NCBI GenBank assembly: GCA_030949405.1
Contig: JAUZSN010000002.1
Coordinates: 806,001-870,000 of the forward strand
Direction of reading: 5' to 3'
DNA from: Methylococcales bacterium
Lineage (GTDB): Bacteria > Pseudomonadota > Gammaproteobacteria > Methylococcales > Methylomonadaceae
Length of the DNA stretch: 64,000 nucleotides
In this document: piece by piece, positions 19,122-55,839 of the stretch
Layout: each line of letters starts with the position of its first letter
Position numbering within the stretch: the first letter of the stretch is position 1
Position numbers and translations under genes: made by a program
Notes under the pieces: generated by a model
What the model saw: only the letters and a program-made list of their open reading frames with translations
What the model was told of the DNA's origin: nothing
Database searches by the model: none

Positions 19122-20216
19122 TTAATTTTTTAGAGAATATCTACGTTGTTGCCAAAGATTACAAAGCTCCGTAGAAATCGGCAATTCATTCAATAATGTT
19201 TTCATATTACAGGGTAAAATCGCATTTTTTGGCGAATTAATTGCCCAATAAAGTATCCCTTCAAATAATCCCGCCGCCTCAATAATACGTTGTCCTTCTC
19301 GCCAAACGGGGAAGATACGAACTTCAAATGTATATTTATCGGCGGTAAATTCAATCATATTTTTTAAGTTGAAATTACAATACTTAGTCACTTCAAATTG
19401 AGCCAGTGATTGCATTCCCTGTTCCCACGTGGATTCACTAAACTCAGGGGTTTGTACCCAATCATAAAGTTCTTGTGGCCATTTTCCCAGCCTTCGACAG
19501 CGCGGGTTCGTTTCAACCAATCGGTTTAAATCATCATTAAATGCCCATAATAAACGCATTAAATTGGCTAGCGTCGATGTTGATTGTAAGGGGGTTGCAT
19601 CAAAATGTAGATGCGTTGCCCCTTCGATAGGTGCTGTAAACCCTAATGTTCGAGCAATAGAAAGTAAGGATTCTAAGTAATCTAAATGATCTTTTTTTAT
19701 GGGGGCTGTAATCAATTCACAGGGACGTTCACGCTCACCGGGAAGTGGAGCCGCAATGGCAATCGAACGTCCTGTACGATCAATAACACGAACCATTTTA
19801 CCTTGACTGTGTTGAACTTCTGTTCCAAATAAATCAGCAATCGGGGTTAACACCTCTGAAATAGAATCACTAGGGTTGCTCTGTTGTAAAATTAACTGTA
19901 GAAGACGACCGTCATCACTGACAATACGATACCAGTCCATTTGAGGAGGATGAGATTTATCACAATCATCTTGAAGGGTTAAATCATCCACACAGTAAGC
20001 TATAACAACGCCATTGGAATCAACAACCTCAAAGGCTTGGGTCAAGTTATTAAATAAAGAGTGCCCTGAAACTTTACTCGGCTCAACTTGAGGATGAAAA
20101 AAAGGGCGAACAGATCCCCCTTTTTGTTTAGCAATCGCTTCGGCTAAATCTCGCCGACTCCGTCCTTTTGGCGCGATCAATTCAATTTCAACACCGATTT
20201 TCCAATTAAGTTGCAT
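19122..20216 (-). CDS. Putative amidoligase
   Basis: A 364-residue protein with the opening WKIGVEIELIAPKGRSRRDLA seen in the amidoligase family of the glutamine synthetase / ATP-grasp-like COOH-NH2 ligase fold. Other blocks are CELITAPIKKDHLDYLE, GATHLHFDATPL and KYCNFNLKNMIEFTADKYTFEVRIFP. They supply the conserved Glu, His and Arg of the fold. Family members are predicted to join amino groups to carboxyl groups of proteins or small molecules. The start codon overlaps the stop of the upstream repeat lipoprotein by one base (TAATG), so the two are translationally coupled. The substrate is unknown; the lipoprotein is an obvious candidate partner. Confidence 0.75.
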   Translation of the reverse strand: MQLNWKIGVEIELIAPKGRSRRDLAEAIAKQKGGSVRPFFHPQVEPSKVSGHSLFNNLTQAFEVVDSNGVVIAYCVDDLTLQDDCDKSHPPQMDWYRIVSDDGRLLQLILQQSNPSDSISEVLTPIADLFGTEVQHSQGKMVRVIDRTGRSIAIAAPLPGERERPCELITAPIKKDHLDYLESLLSIARTLGFTAPIEGATHLHFDATPLQSTSTLANLMRLLWAFNDDLNRLVETNPRCRRLGKWPQELYDWVQTPEFSESTWEQGMQSLAQFEVTKYCNFNLKNMIEFTADKYTFEVRIFPVWREGQRIIEAAGLFEGILYWAINSPKNAILPCNMKTLLNELPISTELCNLWQQRRYSLKN

Positions 20217-20968
20217 TAGCCTAAAAAGTGTTTTATCGCTTGATCAATGGTTTCGCGCTCATTATTGATGAGTAACCGACCTATTTTAAGTTTCGCTTCC
20301 CACGGTGATGATTTCCCCCAAAACTCCGCTAATAAAACGGCATCGTCATAGTTGTATGTACTCTGAATGTAAGCCTCTCTTTGTGCATCTTCATTTTTTT
20401 TAGCTTTCGTTAACGCGTCTTGAATGGCTGTATTCTTCTCTTTTATTAATAAATCACCTATTTTAAGTTTAGCTTCCCATGTCTCTTCTTCTCCCCAAAA
20501 AGTCGCTAATAAAACGGCATCTTTATAGGTATAGCGACTGTTATAAAAAGCATTTATTTGTTGTTCTTTTGGGGATTTTCTGACAACAATCGTTTGATTA
20601 TTACTGGCACTAGTGAGTGATTGTTGAATATATTGATTATTAGCCGCGATTAATAGGCTACCTATTTTAAGCTTGGCATCCCATGTATTTTCTTTTCCCC
20701 AAAAGGTCGCTAATAAAACCGCATCATCATAGGTATATTTGCTATTAGAATAAGCCTCTATGTGTTGTTCTTTAGCACTCTTTATGACTTGACGAGGTAA
20801 CGTATTCACTTGTTGCTCTTCTAGGGTTGGCAACTCATTCTGGCTTTCTATTTTTGGCTCTTCTTGAACGCTATTTGTATCAGAATCTTGACAAGCAGGC
20901 ACACTCAATAGGGCTGAAATAGCCAGTGTTAACGTTAGGTTTTCTTTTTTAATAAAGGTCATCCCCAT
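20216..20968 (-). CDS. Lipoprotein with three internal repeats
   Basis: A 250-residue protein with a signal sequence and a lipobox ending LSVPAC at Cys26, so likely membrane-anchored by lipid. After an acidic, Gln-rich spacer come three repeats at about 72-118, 137-188 and 197-245. Each has the core YxYxDAVLLAxFWG, then W(D/E)AKLKIGxLLI. The repeats are short helical pairs by appearance. I do not recognise the domain. A GGAG lies just upstream of the ATG; an alternative ATG two codons later has better spacing. It is coupled to the amidoligase gene downstream and separated from purD by a 172-base gap. Confidence 0.75.
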   Translation of the reverse strand: MGMTFIKKENLTLTLAISALLSVPACQDSDTNSVQEEPKIESQNELPTLEEQQVNTLPRQVIKSAKEQHIEAYSNSKYTYDDAVLLATFWGKENTWDAKLKIGSLLIAANNQYIQQSLTSASNNQTIVVRKSPKEQQINAFYNSRYTYKDAVLLATFWGEEETWEAKLKIGDLLIKEKNTAIQDALTKAKKNEDAQREAYIQSTYNYDDAVLLAEFWGKSSPWEAKLKIGRLLINNERETIDQAIKHFLG

Positions 20969-21026: not shown

Positions 21027-21080
21027 TAGGAGAACTCACTTTCAAGCGAGCTGTAAGCCAACAGAACAACGGTTCTCCTA
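21027..21080. repeat. Inverted repeat upstream of the lipoprotein gene
   Basis: Perfect 9-base arms TAGGAGAAC / GTTCTCCTA separated by 36 bases, about 60 bases upstream of the lipoprotein start and 60 bases after the purD stop. It has no U-run, so a regulatory hairpin or a small element remnant is possible. Confidence 0.4.
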
Positions 21081-24111: not shown

Positions 24112-25494
24112 TTAAAATTTAAACACCGCTTGGGTATAAGCATAAGTCGTTTCTTTTTTATCCGCCCCATCCATTAAATCCCCTGCAAAAACATGAGCAA
24201 TTCCAGCTTCTAAGCGAATATTTTTAGGTAAAATATCCCCGCGTAAACGAGCTTCAATTTGTGTTCCAATATAAGAATCAGCCCCCTTAATCCCCGCCCC
24301 TGTCCACGCATCCGCCGTTGAAGCCAACCAAAACCCACGCAAGGCAATCATCGTTGATACTTTTTTATAGGGCTTAAAGGTAAACCGTAGCGCGGGGGAA
24401 TTTAAGTTTCCACGCGCAAATGGCCCATAGGTACTGGTTGGACCAAAATCAAAACGACGCGCTCCATATAAGGTATCAAAACGATTATTTTCACCGTCAT
24501 TAGCATCGTCATCCCCACTGGCATAATCATATTGAACAATCAATCTTGGTGACCTGTGACTATCAAAACTGTAGCCTATTTCAGCATGATGAAAATGCGC
24601 CCAATGGTTTAAATTTTCAGTCGCCTTAGTGGAAATTCGAGAATGCCCTAATTGATAAGCGGCTTCTAGTTGATAGTCAAACTCTCCTTTTTTGCGTTAC
24701 GCCAAAATCGCATTCCAAAGGTATAAAGATGACGGTTTTTCGTTTTTCGTTCCTCAGAATCCTCTTCATCCAAGCCGAATAAAAAAGCCTCGGCCTTATC
24801 AAACTCACTCAATAAAGACTGGCTATAATAAACGCCCCAAAACCGAACGCTGGTATCTTCTCGATCAAGTTGTTGATGATTATCCTCATTATGCTGGCCA
24901 TTTAAACGTTGAATCGGTAACGTATAAAACGCCCGTAATTTACGATCTTTCGACTTTCATTGCCAATCAACCCCCGTAAACGCATTCAGTGTATTACGAA
25001 AACGATTCCGTGCGACAAAACGCCGACTGCCCACATCCATTGTTATTCATCCACCACGAAGAGCACTTTGACTGCCTTTTTCAAATAAATCATTCACAGG
25101 AATTTCAAAATACGCTTGCAGTAATTCCAATGAATTGACGATTGAAGTCGATAATTTATTGCTAGAACTTGCCGTTCCGCTATCGGATAATAAAATACGC
25201 GAATCCTCCATTTCAGCCCCGAAACGAATAAAGTCTAAATCAATTTTAGCGTGCAATAAGGTTCTAAAAACCAACGCTTGATCGCCGCCTTTCCCTGTTA
25301 TTCTATTGGTTTTTGCTCTAAATTGCTCATCTAAGGTTTCATAACGTAAGCGATGTTCCCCCTGAAATAGATAACCAAGCGGGTAAATTAAGGGCGTGAT
25401 TAAGTCGCCAAGGTTTTTCTTCCGCATTTACGGGGGCTGAAAGGGCGAAACAAATTATTATAAAACAGGACTTCAAAATGGAGTTAACGTACAT
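24112..25494 (-). pseudogene. Alginate-export-type outer membrane porin, decayed
   Basis: Translating the minus strand in pieces reconstructs an AlgE/alginate_exp-like beta-barrel. A signal peptide starts with the ATG at 25492-25494, then come LRYETLDEQFRA, MDVGSRRFVARNRFRNTL, DTSVRFWGVYYSQSL and the C-terminal YTQAVFKF. Four breaks interrupt it. An extra G in the G5 run is at 25358-25362. In-frame TGA codons lie at 25047-25049 and 24957-24959 (apparently a former Arg and Trp codon). A one-base shift is in the A6 run at 24688-24693. The two nonsense codons make pure sequencing error unlikely. The exported substrate of the ancestor is unknown; such porins occur widely outside alginate makers. 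Confidence 0.8.
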
Positions 25495-25663: not shown

Positions 25664-27340
25664 ATGCGATTTTTATTAGCTCTACTCTTTTTATACAGCT
25701 CATTTTTAACAGCTGCCCCGATCAATGTCAGTGTTGACCGCACTTTAATAGCGGTGAATGAATCTTTTGAAATTAACTTTTCAACCACGGAAGACCCCGA
25801 TGCTAATCCCGACTTTAGTCCGCTAGAAAAAGACTTTGAAATTATCCATAAAAATCATGGGAGTAAATTATCATGGGTGAATGGAAAACGCTCAATGAAC
25901 ATTCAGTGGACCTTTACCGTTATCGCCAAAAAAGAGGGGGAATTACAAATTCCAGCCTTGCGTTTTGGCAGTGAAACCAGTCCCGCCGTTTCAATTACCG
26001 TTAATAAAATTAAACCACTGCCTGCGGAATCGTATGAAATTAACGCGCCGATATTTTTAGAGGTCGAAGCCACGCCGATTAATCCTTACCTACAATCCCA
26101 AGTAATTTATCGTTTACGGTTTTTTAGACGGGTCAATATTGTCGAAGCACGGTTGACTGACCCTGAATTAAACGATGCGGTAGTCGAAAAACTAGGAGAG
26201 GATAAAAATTATCAAACTGAACGCGGTGGCATGGTCTACGCTGTCACTGAACGTAACTATGCTATTTTCCCTCAAAAAAGCGGTAAAATGGTGATTAACC
26301 CCTTAAAACTCACGGCGGCCGTTTTAATGGGCAATAGCTCTCGAATGAATAGCCTTTTTGGCACACAAAGTACCAAACGTGAACGCGTCGAATCCAAAGC
26401 CATAACCTTAGATGTACGCCCTATCCCCGCTGACTTTACGGGAAAACATTGGTTAGTTGCCAAAAATGTCAATCTTACTCAACAATGGTCAGGTGATCCT
26501 CAAAAAATACAAGTCGGCGAACCGTTAACTCGAACCTTAACCTTAATGGTTAATGGGGCAACGATGAGTCAACTGCCGCAATTACAGCAACCCTTAATCA
26601 ATAAGGGATTAAAAAATTACCCCGATCAACCTAATTTAAAAGAAAATAAAACCCCCACGGGAGTGATTGCTTTTAGGGAAGAAAAAGTGGCGTTTATTCC
26701 GTCTAAAAACGGGACTTATACTTTACCTGAAATTAAAATTGATTGGTTTAATGTTGAAACAGGGAAAATGGAAGCCGCCCTTATCCCTGAAACAGTGGTA
26801 ACCGCAATCGGCGGAGTTGCCGAAACACAAACCGCAGTAATAACGCCTACCGCACAAGCCAATGTTTCAACGCCTGCGCCCGTGGCTCAAACAGTCGTAT
26901 CTGAAACAGCGAATGCAGGCTTATGGCAAGGGTTAACAATCTTCTTTGCAATGGCTTGGCTTGTTACCTTATATTTATTGTTCACTAAAAAAACCAACGT
27001 CATCGACGAACCTAAAGCCGATGATAAGGCTGTCAGCTTAAAAGCGTGTATCAAAACCTTAAAACATGCGTGTCAGGCGGACGAGGCTCAATCGGCCAAA
27101 GAAGCCTTATTAATCTGGGGGCAATTAACTTATGCAACCACCAGTTTAGGGGCGTTAGCGAATCATTGTGAGGCTCGATTACGCGATGAAATTTTAAACT
27201 TAAATCAACATTTATACAGTCAAGAAACAGGTGGGTGGCAGGGAAAATTATTATTTGAAGGCTTTAGTGAGCATAAAGCCCGTGAAAAAATACGTTCAAA
27301 AACAACCGATGACGCACTTGAACCGCTTTATCGTATTTAA
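25664..27340 (+). CDS. batD: BatD-family protein
   Basis: A 558-residue protein with a signal peptide (MRFLLALLFLYSSFLTAAPI) and a long beta-rich periplasmic region. It includes GSKLSWVNGKRSMNIQWTF and the YRLRFFRRVNIVEARLTDPE block typical of BatD (oxygen-tolerance protein). One transmembrane helix lies near residues 425-443, and a helical cytoplasmic tail follows. BatD works with MoxR ATPases and von Willebrand-domain proteins in envelope maturation or stress tolerance. Here only the MoxR gene follows, 23 bases on. The DUF58, BatA and BatB genes usually present are missing from the window. Confidence 0.88.
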   Translation: MRFLLALLFLYSSFLTAAPINVSVDRTLIAVNESFEINFSTTEDPDANPDFSPLEKDFEIIHKNHGSKLSWVNGKRSMNIQWTFTVIAKKEGELQIPALRFGSETSPAVSITVNKIKPLPAESYEINAPIFLEVEATPINPYLQSQVIYRLRFFRRVNIVEARLTDPELNDAVVEKLGEDKNYQTERGGMVYAVTERNYAIFPQKSGKMVINPLKLTAAVLMGNSSRMNSLFGTQSTKRERVESKAITLDVRPIPADFTGKHWLVAKNVNLTQQWSGDPQKIQVGEPLTRTLTLMVNGATMSQLPQLQQPLINKGLKNYPDQPNLKENKTPTGVIAFREEKVAFIPSKNGTYTLPEIKIDWFNVETGKMEAALIPETVVTAIGGVAETQTAVITPTAQANVSTPAPVAQTVVSETANAGLWQGLTIFFAMAWLVTLYLLFTKKTNVIDEPKADDKAVSLKACIKTLKHACQADEAQSAKEALLIWGQLTYATTSLGALANHCEARLRDEILNLNQHLYSQETGGWQGKLLFEGFSEHKAREKIRSKTTDDALEPLYRI

Positions 27341-27363
27341 GTAAACACTAATCTGGACGAGCG

Positions 27364-28308
27364 ATGACTGATTTTGCGACGGCACAACATATTTTTGAAA
27401 AACTTCATGCAAACTTAGCACAGGTCATGCTAGGGCAATCTCGAACCTTACAATGGTTATTAGCCGCGTTAAGCAGTGGCGGTCATGTGTTATTGGATGA
27501 TGTTCCAGGGACGGGAAAAACCACCTTAGCGAAAGCGTTGGCGATTTCCTGTGAAACTGAATTTCAGCGCATTCAATTTACACCTGATTTATTACCCTCG
27601 GATATTTTAGGGATTTCTATTTTCAACCCTCAAAAGCAAAGTTTTCGTTTTGAAAAAGGGGCTATTTTTTGTAATATTTTATTAGCGGATGAAATTAACC
27701 GCGCCTCACCGCGAACTCAATCGGCGTTATTAGAAGCGATGGCTGAAAATCAAGTGAGTATTGAGCGTCAAATTCGGTTATTACCCTCGCCCTTTTTTGT
27801 GATTGCCACTCAGAACCCTGTTGAGTTTCATGGAACTTATCCGCTTCCCGAAGCACAATTAGATCGTTTTGCGATGAAGTTTAATTTAGGTTATGTTTCT
27901 CATGCGGATGAAGTGGCTATTTTAAATTCACAAGGTCAAGATCACCCGTTAACTCATTTAAAGCCTTGTATTAATGCGGATGAATTGCAGTTTTTACAGC
28001 AGCAAGTTAAGCAGGTTCGCATTAGTGATGAGTTAAAACATTATATTGTCGATATTATTGCCACTACACGTAATCATCCCGAAATTAAATTAGGCGCAAG
28101 TCCACGGGCCTCCTTAGCCTTAATGAAATCAGCACAAGCCTTATCGTTATTGGATGGTTTTGAGTTTGTCACCCCTGATAGTATTAAAGAGCTGGCGGTT
28201 CCTGTGATTGCACATCGTTTGAGTTTGGAATCACAAAGTCAGTTTTCAGGGATTGAGGCGACGACCTTAGTGAAAGAGTTGGTGGATAAGTTGCCTATTC
28301 CGACGTGA
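27364..28308 (+). CDS. MoxR-family AAA+ ATPase
   Basis: A 314-residue chaperone-type ATPase. Walker A is DVPGTGKTTLAKA, Walker B is ILLADEINRASPRTQSALLEAM, sensor 1 is IATQNP, and sensor 2 lies in GASPRASLALMKSAQAL. MoxR proteins assemble metalloenzymes or envelope complexes; the family name comes from methanol dehydrogenase maturation. The gene follows batD closely and is probably in the same transcript, but order is reversed relative to the common moxR-first operons. The start MTDFATAQHIFEKLH is preceded by GGACGAGCG. Confidence 0.93.
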   Translation: MTDFATAQHIFEKLHANLAQVMLGQSRTLQWLLAALSSGGHVLLDDVPGTGKTTLAKALAISCETEFQRIQFTPDLLPSDILGISIFNPQKQSFRFEKGAIFCNILLADEINRASPRTQSALLEAMAENQVSIERQIRLLPSPFFVIATQNPVEFHGTYPLPEAQLDRFAMKFNLGYVSHADEVAILNSQGQDHPLTHLKPCINADELQFLQQQVKQVRISDELKHYIVDIIATTRNHPEIKLGASPRASLALMKSAQALSLLDGFEFVTPDSIKELAVPVIAHRLSLESQSQFSGIEATTLVKELVDKLPIPT

Positions 28309-52589: not shown

Positions 52590-52830
52590 TGGGGCGGGAG
52601 TTGCTGGAAGTGTTGTGAGAAGGAAACCTAAGCGCAAAACGACAAGCCTACGAACAGAAATATCATATTAGGCGTAGTCTCTGAGGTGAGTTGGCACAAG
52701 ACAACGAAACCCAAGGTTTGTGAGATAACGTAAATGATGAGGTTGTGGCGTGACAGTTCATGTTCTTATCTGGGGAGGTCTGCTTAACAGGCAGTCGATA
52801 AGAAACCTGTATAGACCCCTTGTTTTTCTT
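52590..52830 (+). other. Possible group II intron remnant (5' ribozyme part)
   Basis: Within the 594-base gap before the restriction gene lies a GC-richer non-coding segment. Phrases such as GAAACCTAAGCG, GACAACGAAACCCAAGG and CTGGGGAGGTCTGC followed by GGCAGTCGATAAG recall the domain I region of bacterial group II introns. No intron-encoded reverse transcriptase and no clear domain V/VI are visible. The rest of the gap (52450-53043) is AT-rich and unremarkable. The call rests on remembered motif resemblance only. Confidence 0.35.
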
Positions 52831-53043: not shown

Positions 53044-55839
53044 ATGACCTTAACGATTGAAACCTTAAGAAAACGCGCGACGAAGTTTGTTAAAAATTAC
53101 GCAAACTCTCATTATGAAATGGGTGAGGCACAAAATTTTATCCGTGATTTATGTGAAATATTTAACTTAAATTATCGCCGTTCGGTTCGTTTTGAAGCAC
53201 GGGTTAAAAAGTTAAAGGGCAGTGGTCGTATAGATGCTTTTTTTCCTAGCTTATTGTTAGTTGAAATGAAATCAGAGGGGAAAGATTTAGATAAAGCCTA
53301 CCTTCAAGCAACCGATTATTTTCATGGTTTAAAAAATGAGGAGTTGCCGCGCTGTGTTTTGGTCAGTGATTTTCAAAACCTGCATTTATATAACCAAGAA
53401 AATAAAGGCGAAGTCTTAAAAATCAAGTTAGCAGAATTACCGCAATATATTGAGAGTTTTCGTTTTATAACAGGCTATGAAAAGTTATTTAATGAACGTC
53501 AAGAGCGGATTAATAAGGATGCGGCGGAAAAAATGGCAGGCTTACATGATGTCATTAAAGCCACAGGTTATAACAGTAAAGATTTAGAAACCTATTTAGT
53601 ACGTTTGTTATTTTGCTTGTTTGCGGATAATACCAATCTGTTTGGTGAAAACACTGTTTTTTTGGATTATTTAAAAAATTATACGCAGGTTGACGGTGAA
53701 AATTTACACGAACGCTTACAAACGTTATTTAAGGTACTCAATCAACCGACTAAGAAACGCTTAAAAAACTTGCCCGAACATTTAGCCGCTTTTCCTTATA
53801 TTAACGGTTCTTTGTTTGAGGGCGCATTGGAGGATTGTTATTTTGATGAGGAAGTGCGGACTATTTTAATTGAGTGTTGTGAACTGGATTGGAGCGAGAT
53901 TAGCCCCGCGATTTTCGGTTCTTTATTTCAAGCGATTATGCACTTTGATGATGAGAAAGCGGGCGGAAAGACTAAGAAACGTCGTGAATTTGGGGCGCAT
54001 TACACCAGTGAAGAGAATATTTTAAAAACGATTGATCCTTTATTTATGGATGCTTTACGGGCTGAATTTGAGCATATTAGTCCTAAAGGTAGTCGTGTTG
54101 GTAAGGTTAAGACGGCTAAGTTGGCGGTGTTTCATCAAAAGTTAGCGGCTTTGAATTTTTTTGATCCTGCCTGTGGTTGTGGTAACTTTTTGATTGTTGC
54201 TTATCGGGAGTTACGGTTATTAGAATTGGACGTTATTCATGCACAGTTTAGTAAGGCGAAATCGGCACAATTATCGGTTGAAACTTTAATTAAATGTGAT
54301 GTTGACCAGTTTCATGGGATTGATATTGATGGCAGTGCGGTAAATATTGCGACGGTGGCAATGTGGTTGACGGATCATCAAATGAATTTAAAAGTGCAGG
54401 AATTGGGTAATTATTTTAATCGGATTCCGTTGGTTAAAAAGGCGAATATTGTTCATGCGAATGCTTTACAAATTGATTGGAAAACAGTGATTGCGCCTGA
54501 AAAGTGTAGTTTTATTATGGGTAATCCGCCGTTTGTGGGTTATAAATATCAAACTAAAGCACAAAAAGCGGATTGCGCCAAAATTTTTAAAGGAATGAAA
54601 GGGGCGGGTGTTTTAGATTTGGTGACCGCATGGCATGTTAAAGCGGCACGTTATATTCAAACAAATAATAATACTGCTGTTGCTTTTGTTTCAACGAATA
54701 GTTTAACGCAAGGTGAACAAGTCGCTATTTTATGGACAGAATTATTAAGATTAAATATTCGGCTTTATTTTGCTCATCGTACTTTTCGTTGGAGTAATGA
54801 AGGTAAAGGCGTTGCGGCTGTCCATTGCGTCATTATGGGTTTTGGGTTGCAAGAATTAGAGTCTTATCGCTTATTTGATTATGGGGATAATATTAGTGGT
54901 GAGCCAATTGAAATAAAAGCACAACAAATTAACCCTTATTTAGTGGATGCTTCGACTATTTTTATTGAAAAACGTCGAACCCCTTTAATCTCTGACACAC
55001 CAAAAATGACAAAAGGAACACCTCCTTCTGATGATGGAAATTTTTTGTTATCTCAAGAAGAAGCTAAGTTTATCAAACAAAATGATAGCATTGCTAGTAA
55101 ATATATTCGCCAGTTTTTAGGGGCTGCTGAATTTATTAATAATTTACCTCGTTATTGTTTATGGTTAAAAGAAAGCACTGTAAATGACCGACTTAAGTCA
55201 CCCGAAATAAAACAACGTACTGAATTGGTTAAAAAATGGCGATTAGAAAGCAATCGCATAGTAACAAATAAGTTAGCTGAGACACCCTATTTATTTGGTG
55301 AAATTCGTCAAACTGACCAACCGTATTTATTAATTCCAGTTGTCTCTTCTGAAACACGCCGATTTATACCGATTGGCTATATTAATGCCGATGTAATTTG
55401 CGGATATGCCAATTTTATGATGCCTAATGCCAGTCTATATAATTTTGGCTTACTTTGCTCAACTTTTCATAATGCTTGGATGAGAGCTGTATGTGGAAGA
55501 TTAGAAAGTCGTTATCGTTATTCAAACACCGTTGTTTATAACAATTATCCTTTTCCTGAAAACCTAAAATCGGCACAAATAAAAAAAATAGAAACCGCCG
55601 CACAACAAATTTTAGATGCCCGAAAAGCTGAAGAAGATTTATGTGCAGAACAAAATCAAAAATGCTCATTAGCGATGTTATACGCTAAAGAGGGAATGCC
55701 CGCCGATTTAGTCAAAGCCCACAACGCTCTAGATAAAGTAGTCGATGCCGCTTATGGATATAAAGGCAAAAAAGACGATGCCGCACGGGTTGCCTTTTTG
55801 TTTGAACGTTATCAAGAATTGATTGATGGGTTAGAATAG
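53044..55839 (+). CDS. MmeI-type (type IIG/IIL) restriction-methylation enzyme
   Basis: A 931-residue single-chain enzyme. The N-terminal nuclease has SGRIDAFFPSLLLVEMKSEG, fitting a PD-(D/E)xK site with the Asp and the ExK, followed by LDKAYLQATDYF as in MmeI. The helical linker leads to a methyltransferase with motif I FFDPACGCGNFLIVAYREL, and motif IV MGNPPFVGY typical of adenine-N6 methylation. The C-terminal third should hold the target recognition domain. All key residues are present, so it may be active. The stop codon TAG takes its last base from the IS5-like element; the ancestral stop would have been TAA at the same place, so the protein is not truncated. Confidence 0.88.
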   Translation: MTLTIETLRKRATKFVKNYANSHYEMGEAQNFIRDLCEIFNLNYRRSVRFEARVKKLKGSGRIDAFFPSLLLVEMKSEGKDLDKAYLQATDYFHGLKNEELPRCVLVSDFQNLHLYNQENKGEVLKIKLAELPQYIESFRFITGYEKLFNERQERINKDAAEKMAGLHDVIKATGYNSKDLETYLVRLLFCLFADNTNLFGENTVFLDYLKNYTQVDGENLHERLQTLFKVLNQPTKKRLKNLPEHLAAFPYINGSLFEGALEDCYFDEEVRTILIECCELDWSEISPAIFGSLFQAIMHFDDEKAGGKTKKRREFGAHYTSEENILKTIDPLFMDALRAEFEHISPKGSRVGKVKTAKLAVFHQKLAALNFFDPACGCGNFLIVAYRELRLLELDVIHAQFSKAKSAQLSVETLIKCDVDQFHGIDIDGSAVNIATVAMWLTDHQMNLKVQELGNYFNRIPLVKKANIVHANALQIDWKTVIAPEKCSFIMGNPPFVGYKYQTKAQKADCAKIFKGMKGAGVLDLVTAWHVKAARYIQTNNNTAVAFVSTNSLTQGEQVAILWTELLRLNIRLYFAHRTFRWSNEGKGVAAVHCVIMGFGLQELESYRLFDYGDNISGEPIEIKAQQINPYLVDASTIFIEKRRTPLISDTPKMTKGTPPSDDGNFLLSQEEAKFIKQNDSIASKYIRQFLGAAEFINNLPRYCLWLKESTVNDRLKSPEIKQRTELVKKWRLESNRIVTNKLAETPYLFGEIRQTDQPYLLIPVVSSETRRFIPIGYINADVICGYANFMMPNASLYNFGLLCSTFHNAWMRAVCGRLESRYRYSNTVVYNNYPFPENLKSAQIKKIETAAQQILDARKAEEDLCAEQNQKCSLAMLYAKEGMPADLVKAHNALDKVVDAAYGYKGKKDDAARVAFLFERYQELIDGLE

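Follow-up and report, generated by a model that had tools for sequence, protein, structure and literature searches.

An Amidoligase_2 gene is paired with a gene for an apparently exported repeat protein in two bacterial classes

A gene for a protein built of small repeats was found directly upstream of an amidoligase gene in four genomes that span two bacterial classes, represented by the family of Methylobacter and by the Mariprofundaceae. We are almost certain that this pair is a real module. It joins a known enzyme family to a repeat partner that appears to be undescribed in the libraries searched, and it is rare (4/311 genomes). Finding the same pair in another bacterial class points to the repeat protein as either a target or a partner of the enzyme, and the reading that we favor, at a probability of roughly 0.4 and from sequence comparison, is that a cytoplasmic ligase modifies the repeat protein before export, as part of a self-contained two-gene module. 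To our knowledge, no physiological protein substrate has been established for any bacterial Amidoligase_2 enzyme, and a related pairing may be present in the founding analysis (Iyer et al. 2009). The two-gene unit offers a concrete candidate for such a substrate, a dedicated, repeated and apparently exported partner in which specific residues can be named, and the substrate idea can be tested with just two genes.

The two-gene locus

Coordinates refer to the window, the 64,000-nucleotide stretch of a Methylococcales bacterium genome that was analyzed, unless another locus is named. Both genes of the pair lie on its minus strand, the repeat-protein gene being the upstream partner and the amidoligase gene the second.

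20216-20968, minus strand: repeat-protein ORF, 250 aa, with an N-terminal export-like segment and three repeats; homologues in loci L082, L083 and L084
20891-20968, minus strand: N-terminal hydrophobic segment leading to a lipobox-like VPAC (Cys26), by pattern scan; VPAC only in the window protein
20606-20776, minus strand: repeat 1 (residues 65-121), by sequence alignment
20402-20572, minus strand: repeat 2 (residues 133-189), by sequence alignment
20225-20395, minus strand: repeat 3 (residues 192-248), by sequence alignment
20214-20218, minus strand: TAATG junction, with the TAA stop (20216-20218) and the ATG (20214-20216) having one base in common
19122-20216, minus strand: amidoligase ORF, 364 aa, Amidoligase_2 (PF12224), Pfam E 5.5e-16

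The window genome holds a single copy of each gene, on a 2.97-Mb contig, and the pair is flanked there by purD and an aminotransferase gene. The ORF coordinates bear out that the stop codon of the repeat-protein gene overlaps the start of the amidoligase gene by one base. No terminator-like site was found at the window pair, and promoter-like sites occur at chance level. Between purD and the repeat-protein gene lies a perfect 9-base inverted repeat (TAGGAGAAC/GTTCTCCTA, spacing 36 bases, 21027-21080), and the folding energy of this stretch is ordinary (z -1.1). In 11 relatives, the surroundings of purD showed no copy of the pair and no clean empty site.

Distribution and conservation of the pair

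When 311 genomes were searched with profiles of both proteins, the repeat profile matched 2/237 genomes of the window's family and 2/74 Mariprofundaceae genomes, and the enzyme profile matched 3/237 and 3/74, respectively. One of the three Mariprofundaceae enzyme matches (G722) was set aside, being a short match inside an Amidase_3 (N-acetylmuramoyl-alanine amidase) ORF. The amidoligase gene lies directly downstream in all four genomes with a repeat gene, and the co-occurrence of repeat and enzyme gives a Fisher P of 1.3e-8, uncorrected for kinship. The original prediction of a shared process came with a proposed neighborhood analysis of whether the two genes co-occur, and as to the pairing it was upheld: every repeat gene found (4/4) precedes an amidoligase gene.

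The members outside the window's class came from a search of 349 genomes of the phylum with a three-repeat profile. At an E value of 0.5 this search retrieved 27 genomes, of which the window genome and two others (G604 and G714) were accepted, the latter two holding three-repeat homologues; we took the other 24 (E 0.006 to 0.47) for chance matches without inspecting their loci. An enzyme search of the loci collected at that stage gave nothing better than E 0.6 other than at the window, G604 and G714. The two enzymes from outside the window's class were compared with that of the window over 280 and 222 residues, all that is present of them, and are 67 and 70% identical to it, respectively. A scan of genome contigs with an enzyme alignment yielded three loci, one in a Methylobacter sp. 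MAG (JADHTX010000004.1) and the others in G604 and G714, which are Mariprofundaceae MAGs (JAUZQM010000108.1 and JAUZRG010000020.1), and at the Methylobacter locus a two-repeat protein is encoded 193 bases upstream of the enzyme.

Several narrower searches returned only the window genome or nothing: the class-level repeat search (1/274 genomes), a family-level search using the full-length repeat protein (1/101) and a single-sequence amidoligase search of 151 genomes of the order each found the window copy alone, and the genome-contig scan with the window enzyme alone gave no match. Because such single-sequence and sampled searches miss members (a profile later found the Methylobacter copy and a remnant in genome G077), our member counts are lower bounds. 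Searches of plasmids, phages and viral contigs with either protein found no copy of the pair (one plasmid row was returned at E 5), and two hand-made repeat patterns had no match in viral contigs. A pattern from the enzyme did hit a single viral contig, but the site lies in a phage ORF of 1691 codons that has no amidoligase match, and it was rejected. Among the literature matches listed, no amidoligase was mentioned alongside Mariprofund- or Methylobacter; in the portions of text retrieved from PMC8939145 and PMC12419801, the term appears solely in the reference lists.

The genes adjacent to the pair differ among all four loci. The Methylobacter pair is flanked by mnmE and a sigma-54 activator gene, the G604 pair has an unassigned 191-codon ORF upstream, and the G714 pair has a 110-codon ORF and a class-V aminotransferase gene upstream; both Mariprofundaceae contigs stop at or just past the enzyme, so that the upstream flank alone is visible there. 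Since the pair recurs in four genomes and two classes beside different genes, it behaves as one module. The one-base overlap, from which translational coupling had been proposed, did not hold as a general trait, as the relatives show gaps of 53 (G604), 65 (G714) and 193 bases (Methylobacter). This lack of conservation is what would be expected if the two genes were unrelated neighbors that overlap by chance in the window genome, but that explanation is strongly disfavored by the co-occurrence and by a gene order that is kept in all four genomes, across two classes and next to different flanking genes, and we consider it very improbable.

The repeat protein

The original prediction of three near-identical units stands as to three homologous copies, but not as to their likeness: the units of about 57 residues share pairwise amino-acid identities of only 66, 52 and 48%, with 61-71% identity at the DNA level and 24/56 columns invariant. 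Repeat number varies, with three in the window protein and the two Mariprofundaceae homologues and two in the Methylobacter protein. Its description as a lipoprotein is plausible for the window protein, which has one VPAC/Cys26 site, but the lipobox is absent in all three relatives; these have a similar hydrophobic stretch followed, per pattern scan, by A-x-A sites instead of the lipobox Cys. Judging by this N-terminal hydrophobic segment, the repeat protein is apparently exported. Neither lipid anchoring nor translational coupling is essential to the pair, since neither the lipobox nor the overlap is conserved.

The domain had been called unfamiliar, and the searches agree. The whole window protein has no convincing known family in Pfam, NCBIfam, PHROGs or PADLOC, all of its Pfam matches falling under the Pfam cut-offs and its best PHROG match spanning 20 residues. 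The three repeats against Pfam and NCBIfam, and ten repeats against PHROGs and Pfam, likewise gave no convincing family; TPR and SEL1, the known unrelated domains named beforehand as possible matches, were absent from the hmmscan of ten repeats against Pfam at E values up to 1. Against PDB sequences, a three-repeat profile retrieved four rows, the best at E 0.23, and a ten-repeat profile retrieved none. PHROG 17398 was considered as a candidate (E 0.0018 for the window protein) and rejected, as it matched just 1/10 repeats (E 0.25) and its genome matches had E values of 0.6 and 1.9.

The predicted structure of the window repeat protein has four helices per unit. Averaged over ten-residue blocks, pLDDT lies at 81-95 over the repeats, the exceptions being the start (70) and one linker (62). 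The arrangement of the units relative to each other is uncertain in the model (pTM 0.47). Foldseek and VIA-align found no convincing match for this model, which does not imply a new fold.

Ten repeats were aligned, an eleventh (G714 repeat 2) being omitted because of a stop codon. Fifteen positions do not vary. Among these are D18, K35 and K37, which show synonymous codon differences between the ten repeats. Residue 33 is Asp in eight and Glu in two. The decayed eleventh repeat keeps D18, K35 and K37 and has Asn33, Gly34 and Ser39. Invariant charged residues next to freely varying ones are the pattern expected of a modification or recognition site, and may equally reflect packing or salt bridges.

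The amidoligase

The identity of the second gene as an amidoligase, given in the original prediction, was confirmed by PF12224 (59.6 bits, where the Pfam cut-off is 22). PF12224 is the sole Pfam family listed for the enzyme, with no match to an ATP-grasp family, and all four enzymes of the pair match Amidoligase_2 at E 0.01 or better. No export signal is evident in the enzyme, whose N-terminal hydropathy is low. We compared it with the enzymes of 19 ordinary amidoligase loci; about four rows of this alignment probably represent a wrong ORF choice or misalignment, and these were kept in the counts given below.

20181-20195, minus strand: GVEIE motif (Glu10, Glu12); E at both positions in 15/19 aligned relatives
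19605-19613, minus strand: H202-x-H204 motif; invariant in the four members of the pair, with H204 in 11/19 relatives and H202 in 0/19
19317-19325, minus strand: E298-V-R300 motif near the C-terminus; R300 in 16/19 relatives, with 3 gaps

The majority residue in the 19 relatives equals that of the window enzyme at Glu10 (15), Glu12 (15), Glu167 (16) and Arg300 (16), which we take to be active-site residues, the GVEIE motif being the presumed counterpart of the metal-binding E-x-E of glutamine synthetases. The window enzyme departs from its relatives at column 202, with His202 where 16/19 have G, and at column 298, where the relatives have H (15), E (1) or a gap (3), giving E-x-R versus H-x-R. 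It is further set apart by additional sequence between its N-terminal G-x-E-x-E motif and its P-x-E-L-I motif. The window enzyme is a divergent subtype of Amidoligase_2.

The AlphaFold model of the enzyme is of low confidence (mean pLDDT 57.2, pTM 0.57), and Foldseek found no match for it at E 0.001. With the same weak model, VIA-align placed glutamine synthetases in 13 of the 14 top rows (Z 6.2-7.5), with YbdK at Z 5.1. At Z values under 8, this ranking may be taken as supporting evidence alone for the fold.

A separate architecture was seen in another genome of the class (L021, 1-2442), in which a single ORF joins a ResIII/Helicase_C helicase to a downstream Amidoligase_2 domain (residues 501-734). 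The next ORF reads to us like a retropepsin-type protease.

Comparison with known amidoligase systems

Amidoligase_2 enzymes of the same class that are encoded beside a Peptidase_C26/GATase protein share the G-x-E-x-E, P-x-E and C-terminal R motifs with the window enzyme. Ten ORFs beside these ordinary amidoligases all matched Peptidase_C26/GATase, where 10/10 is not a frequency, as the ten were chosen by eye as GATase-like from the 19 loci. In contrast to such pairs, the partner here is an export-like repeat protein, and the enzyme carries the added segment and E-x-R in place of H-x-R (15/19). No GATase gene lies beside the pair, as judged from both flanks in the window and at the Methylobacter locus (L082) and from the upstream flank alone in the Mariprofundaceae (L080 and L081), and no amidotransferase or cyclotransferase was recognized among the ORFs beside the pair.

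The phage search returned four rows, all ordinary phage amidoligases (E 0.04 to 0.1). Amidoligases of Blautia, Faecalimonas and OM43 phages are weakly similar to the Methylobacter enzyme within its residues 159-302 (28% identity, with a best E of 0.04), and in the one phage record examined a gamma-glutamyl cyclotransferase is annotated adjacent, with no repeat protein. In OM43 phages a GATase gene accompanies the amidoligase, and a phage amidoligase together with GATase has been suggested to modify the cell wall (PMC10580990).

The pair also resembles graspetide loci in its logic, in that one amide-forming ligase accompanies a precursor with repeats. It differs from them in that the ligase is an Amidoligase_2 enzyme rather than an ATP-grasp, and in that the repeats are predicted folded helical domains rather than short cores. 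Proteins with a lipoprotein attachment site are described among the commonest associates of graspetide loci (PMC8939145), so a lipoprotein near an amide-forming ligase has precedent.

Proposed mechanism and alternatives

We propose that the product of the first gene would be exported and consist of two or three small domains, each of four short predicted helices, and that the second gene would yield a cytoplasmic glutamine-synthetase-like amidoligase, an ATP-dependent carboxylate-amine ligase. The ligase would form an amide on conserved side chains in each repeat, for which Asp18, acidic residue 33, Lys35 and Lys37 are candidates, and the modified repeat protein would then function in the periplasm or at the surface. 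Modification would have to precede export, since the proposed substrate has a signal and the ligase has none, a point that counts against this reading. A substrate role is the best single mechanism because the repeat protein is the sole constant companion of the enzyme that was found, because a GATase-like hydrolase was not recognized, and because each repeat carries the acid and lysine pattern. Also counter to the substrate reading, the invariant repeat residues may be structural instead, and the decayed eleventh repeat departs from the pattern with Asn33. A more specific version, in which an isopeptide staple within each repeat (from acidic residue 33 to Lys37, i to i+4, or from Asp18) would harden the exported protein, is in our view improbable; if true, it would be the equivalent of graspetide maturation for an enzyme of glutamine-synthetase fold whose targets are folded domains.

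A second reading, which we hold to be possible though less so than a substrate role, is that the repeat protein serves in the envelope as a partner or targeting factor, while the amidoligase has another target: peptidoglycan peptides, a surface polymer or a small metabolite, the product of which would be bound by the repeat protein. An export-like N-terminus on the repeat protein only would be consistent with this, as would the cell-wall suggestion made for phage amidoligase and GATase (PMC10580990) and the Peptidase_C26/GATase protein beside ordinary relatives. Envelope-related clusters are also found near, though not adjacent to, two of the four pairs, a MoxR-like ATPase recurring in both at a distance. 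In G714 (L081, 220-4030), the genes for a MoxR-like AAA_3 ATPase and a TgpA-type transglutaminase-like protein lie upstream of the pair at a distance of about 3.5-7 kb. The window has BatD together with a MoxR-like AAA_3 ATPase at 25664-28308, about 5-7 kb upstream. We read the proximity in the window as ancestral gene order rather than linkage, since BatD adjoins purD in two loci of the same genus (L041 and L042) that lack the pair. The envelope reading is weakened by the different compartments in which the ligase and its partner would act, and by the lack of a recognized wall or polymer gene among the immediate neighbors of the pair in the window, L082, L080 and L081 (for the Mariprofundaceae, on the upstream flank).

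Probable horizontal transfer, and decay

The pair enzymes are 67-72% identical across classes, and the window and Methylobacter enzymes are 70% identical. For comparison, two core genes (presumably dnaA and dnaN) are 73 and 72% identical between the window and Methylobacter genomes, and the MoxR-like ATPase is 42% identical across classes. Because the neighbors differ and the enzyme is as similar across classes as within the family, horizontal transfer of the pair is probably the simplest reading, by a tree-free comparison of few genes.

Between the Mariprofundaceae copies, the enzyme has a dN of 0.04 and a dS of 0.41 over 222 codons, indicating purifying selection, whereas the repeat protein has a dN of 0.17 at a similar dS. 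The G714 copy is decayed, with a TAG stop in the second repeat and an enzyme that ends early, near codon 286, and the G604 enzyme continues past the contig end; both genes are therefore complete only in the window and Methylobacter genomes. In G077, a genome of the window's genus, about the last 110 enzyme residues remain (L090, 1489-1818), flanked by ORFs for a PIN-domain protein and a phosphoglucose isomerase and with no repeat match, which suggests that the module was lost there. We would like to note that the genomes with the pair are mostly MAGs, in which assembly error in single copies is possible. With just five genomes holding any part of the pair and two copies broken, its function may be dispensable.

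Gain and loss of this kind could also maintain a conflict module, in which the repeat protein is an exported effector or bacteriocin-like product and the ligase its maturase or self-protection. The patchy distribution, the decay in G714 and G077, the varying repeat number and the faster change of the repeat protein between the Mariprofundaceae copies (dN as above) all fit such a role. The faster change is partly decay, however, as one copy has a stop codon; moreover, no immunity, transport or mobility gene was recognized in the adjacent ORFs, PADLOC gave no match for the repeat protein, and no phage or plasmid copy was found. We regard this third reading as unlikely, and a substrate role for the repeat protein remains our preferred one.

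Other features of the window

A group II intron RNA (RF02001, 104.6 bits) was detected at 52600-52764 on the plus strand, followed by a 931-codon ORF at 53044-55839. On the minus strand, the ORF at 24112-24543 matches Alginate_exp (PF13372) at positions 257-392 of 395, toward the C-terminal end of the family profile, and together with the ORF at 25047-25427, also on the minus strand, it may represent a broken outer-membrane gene.
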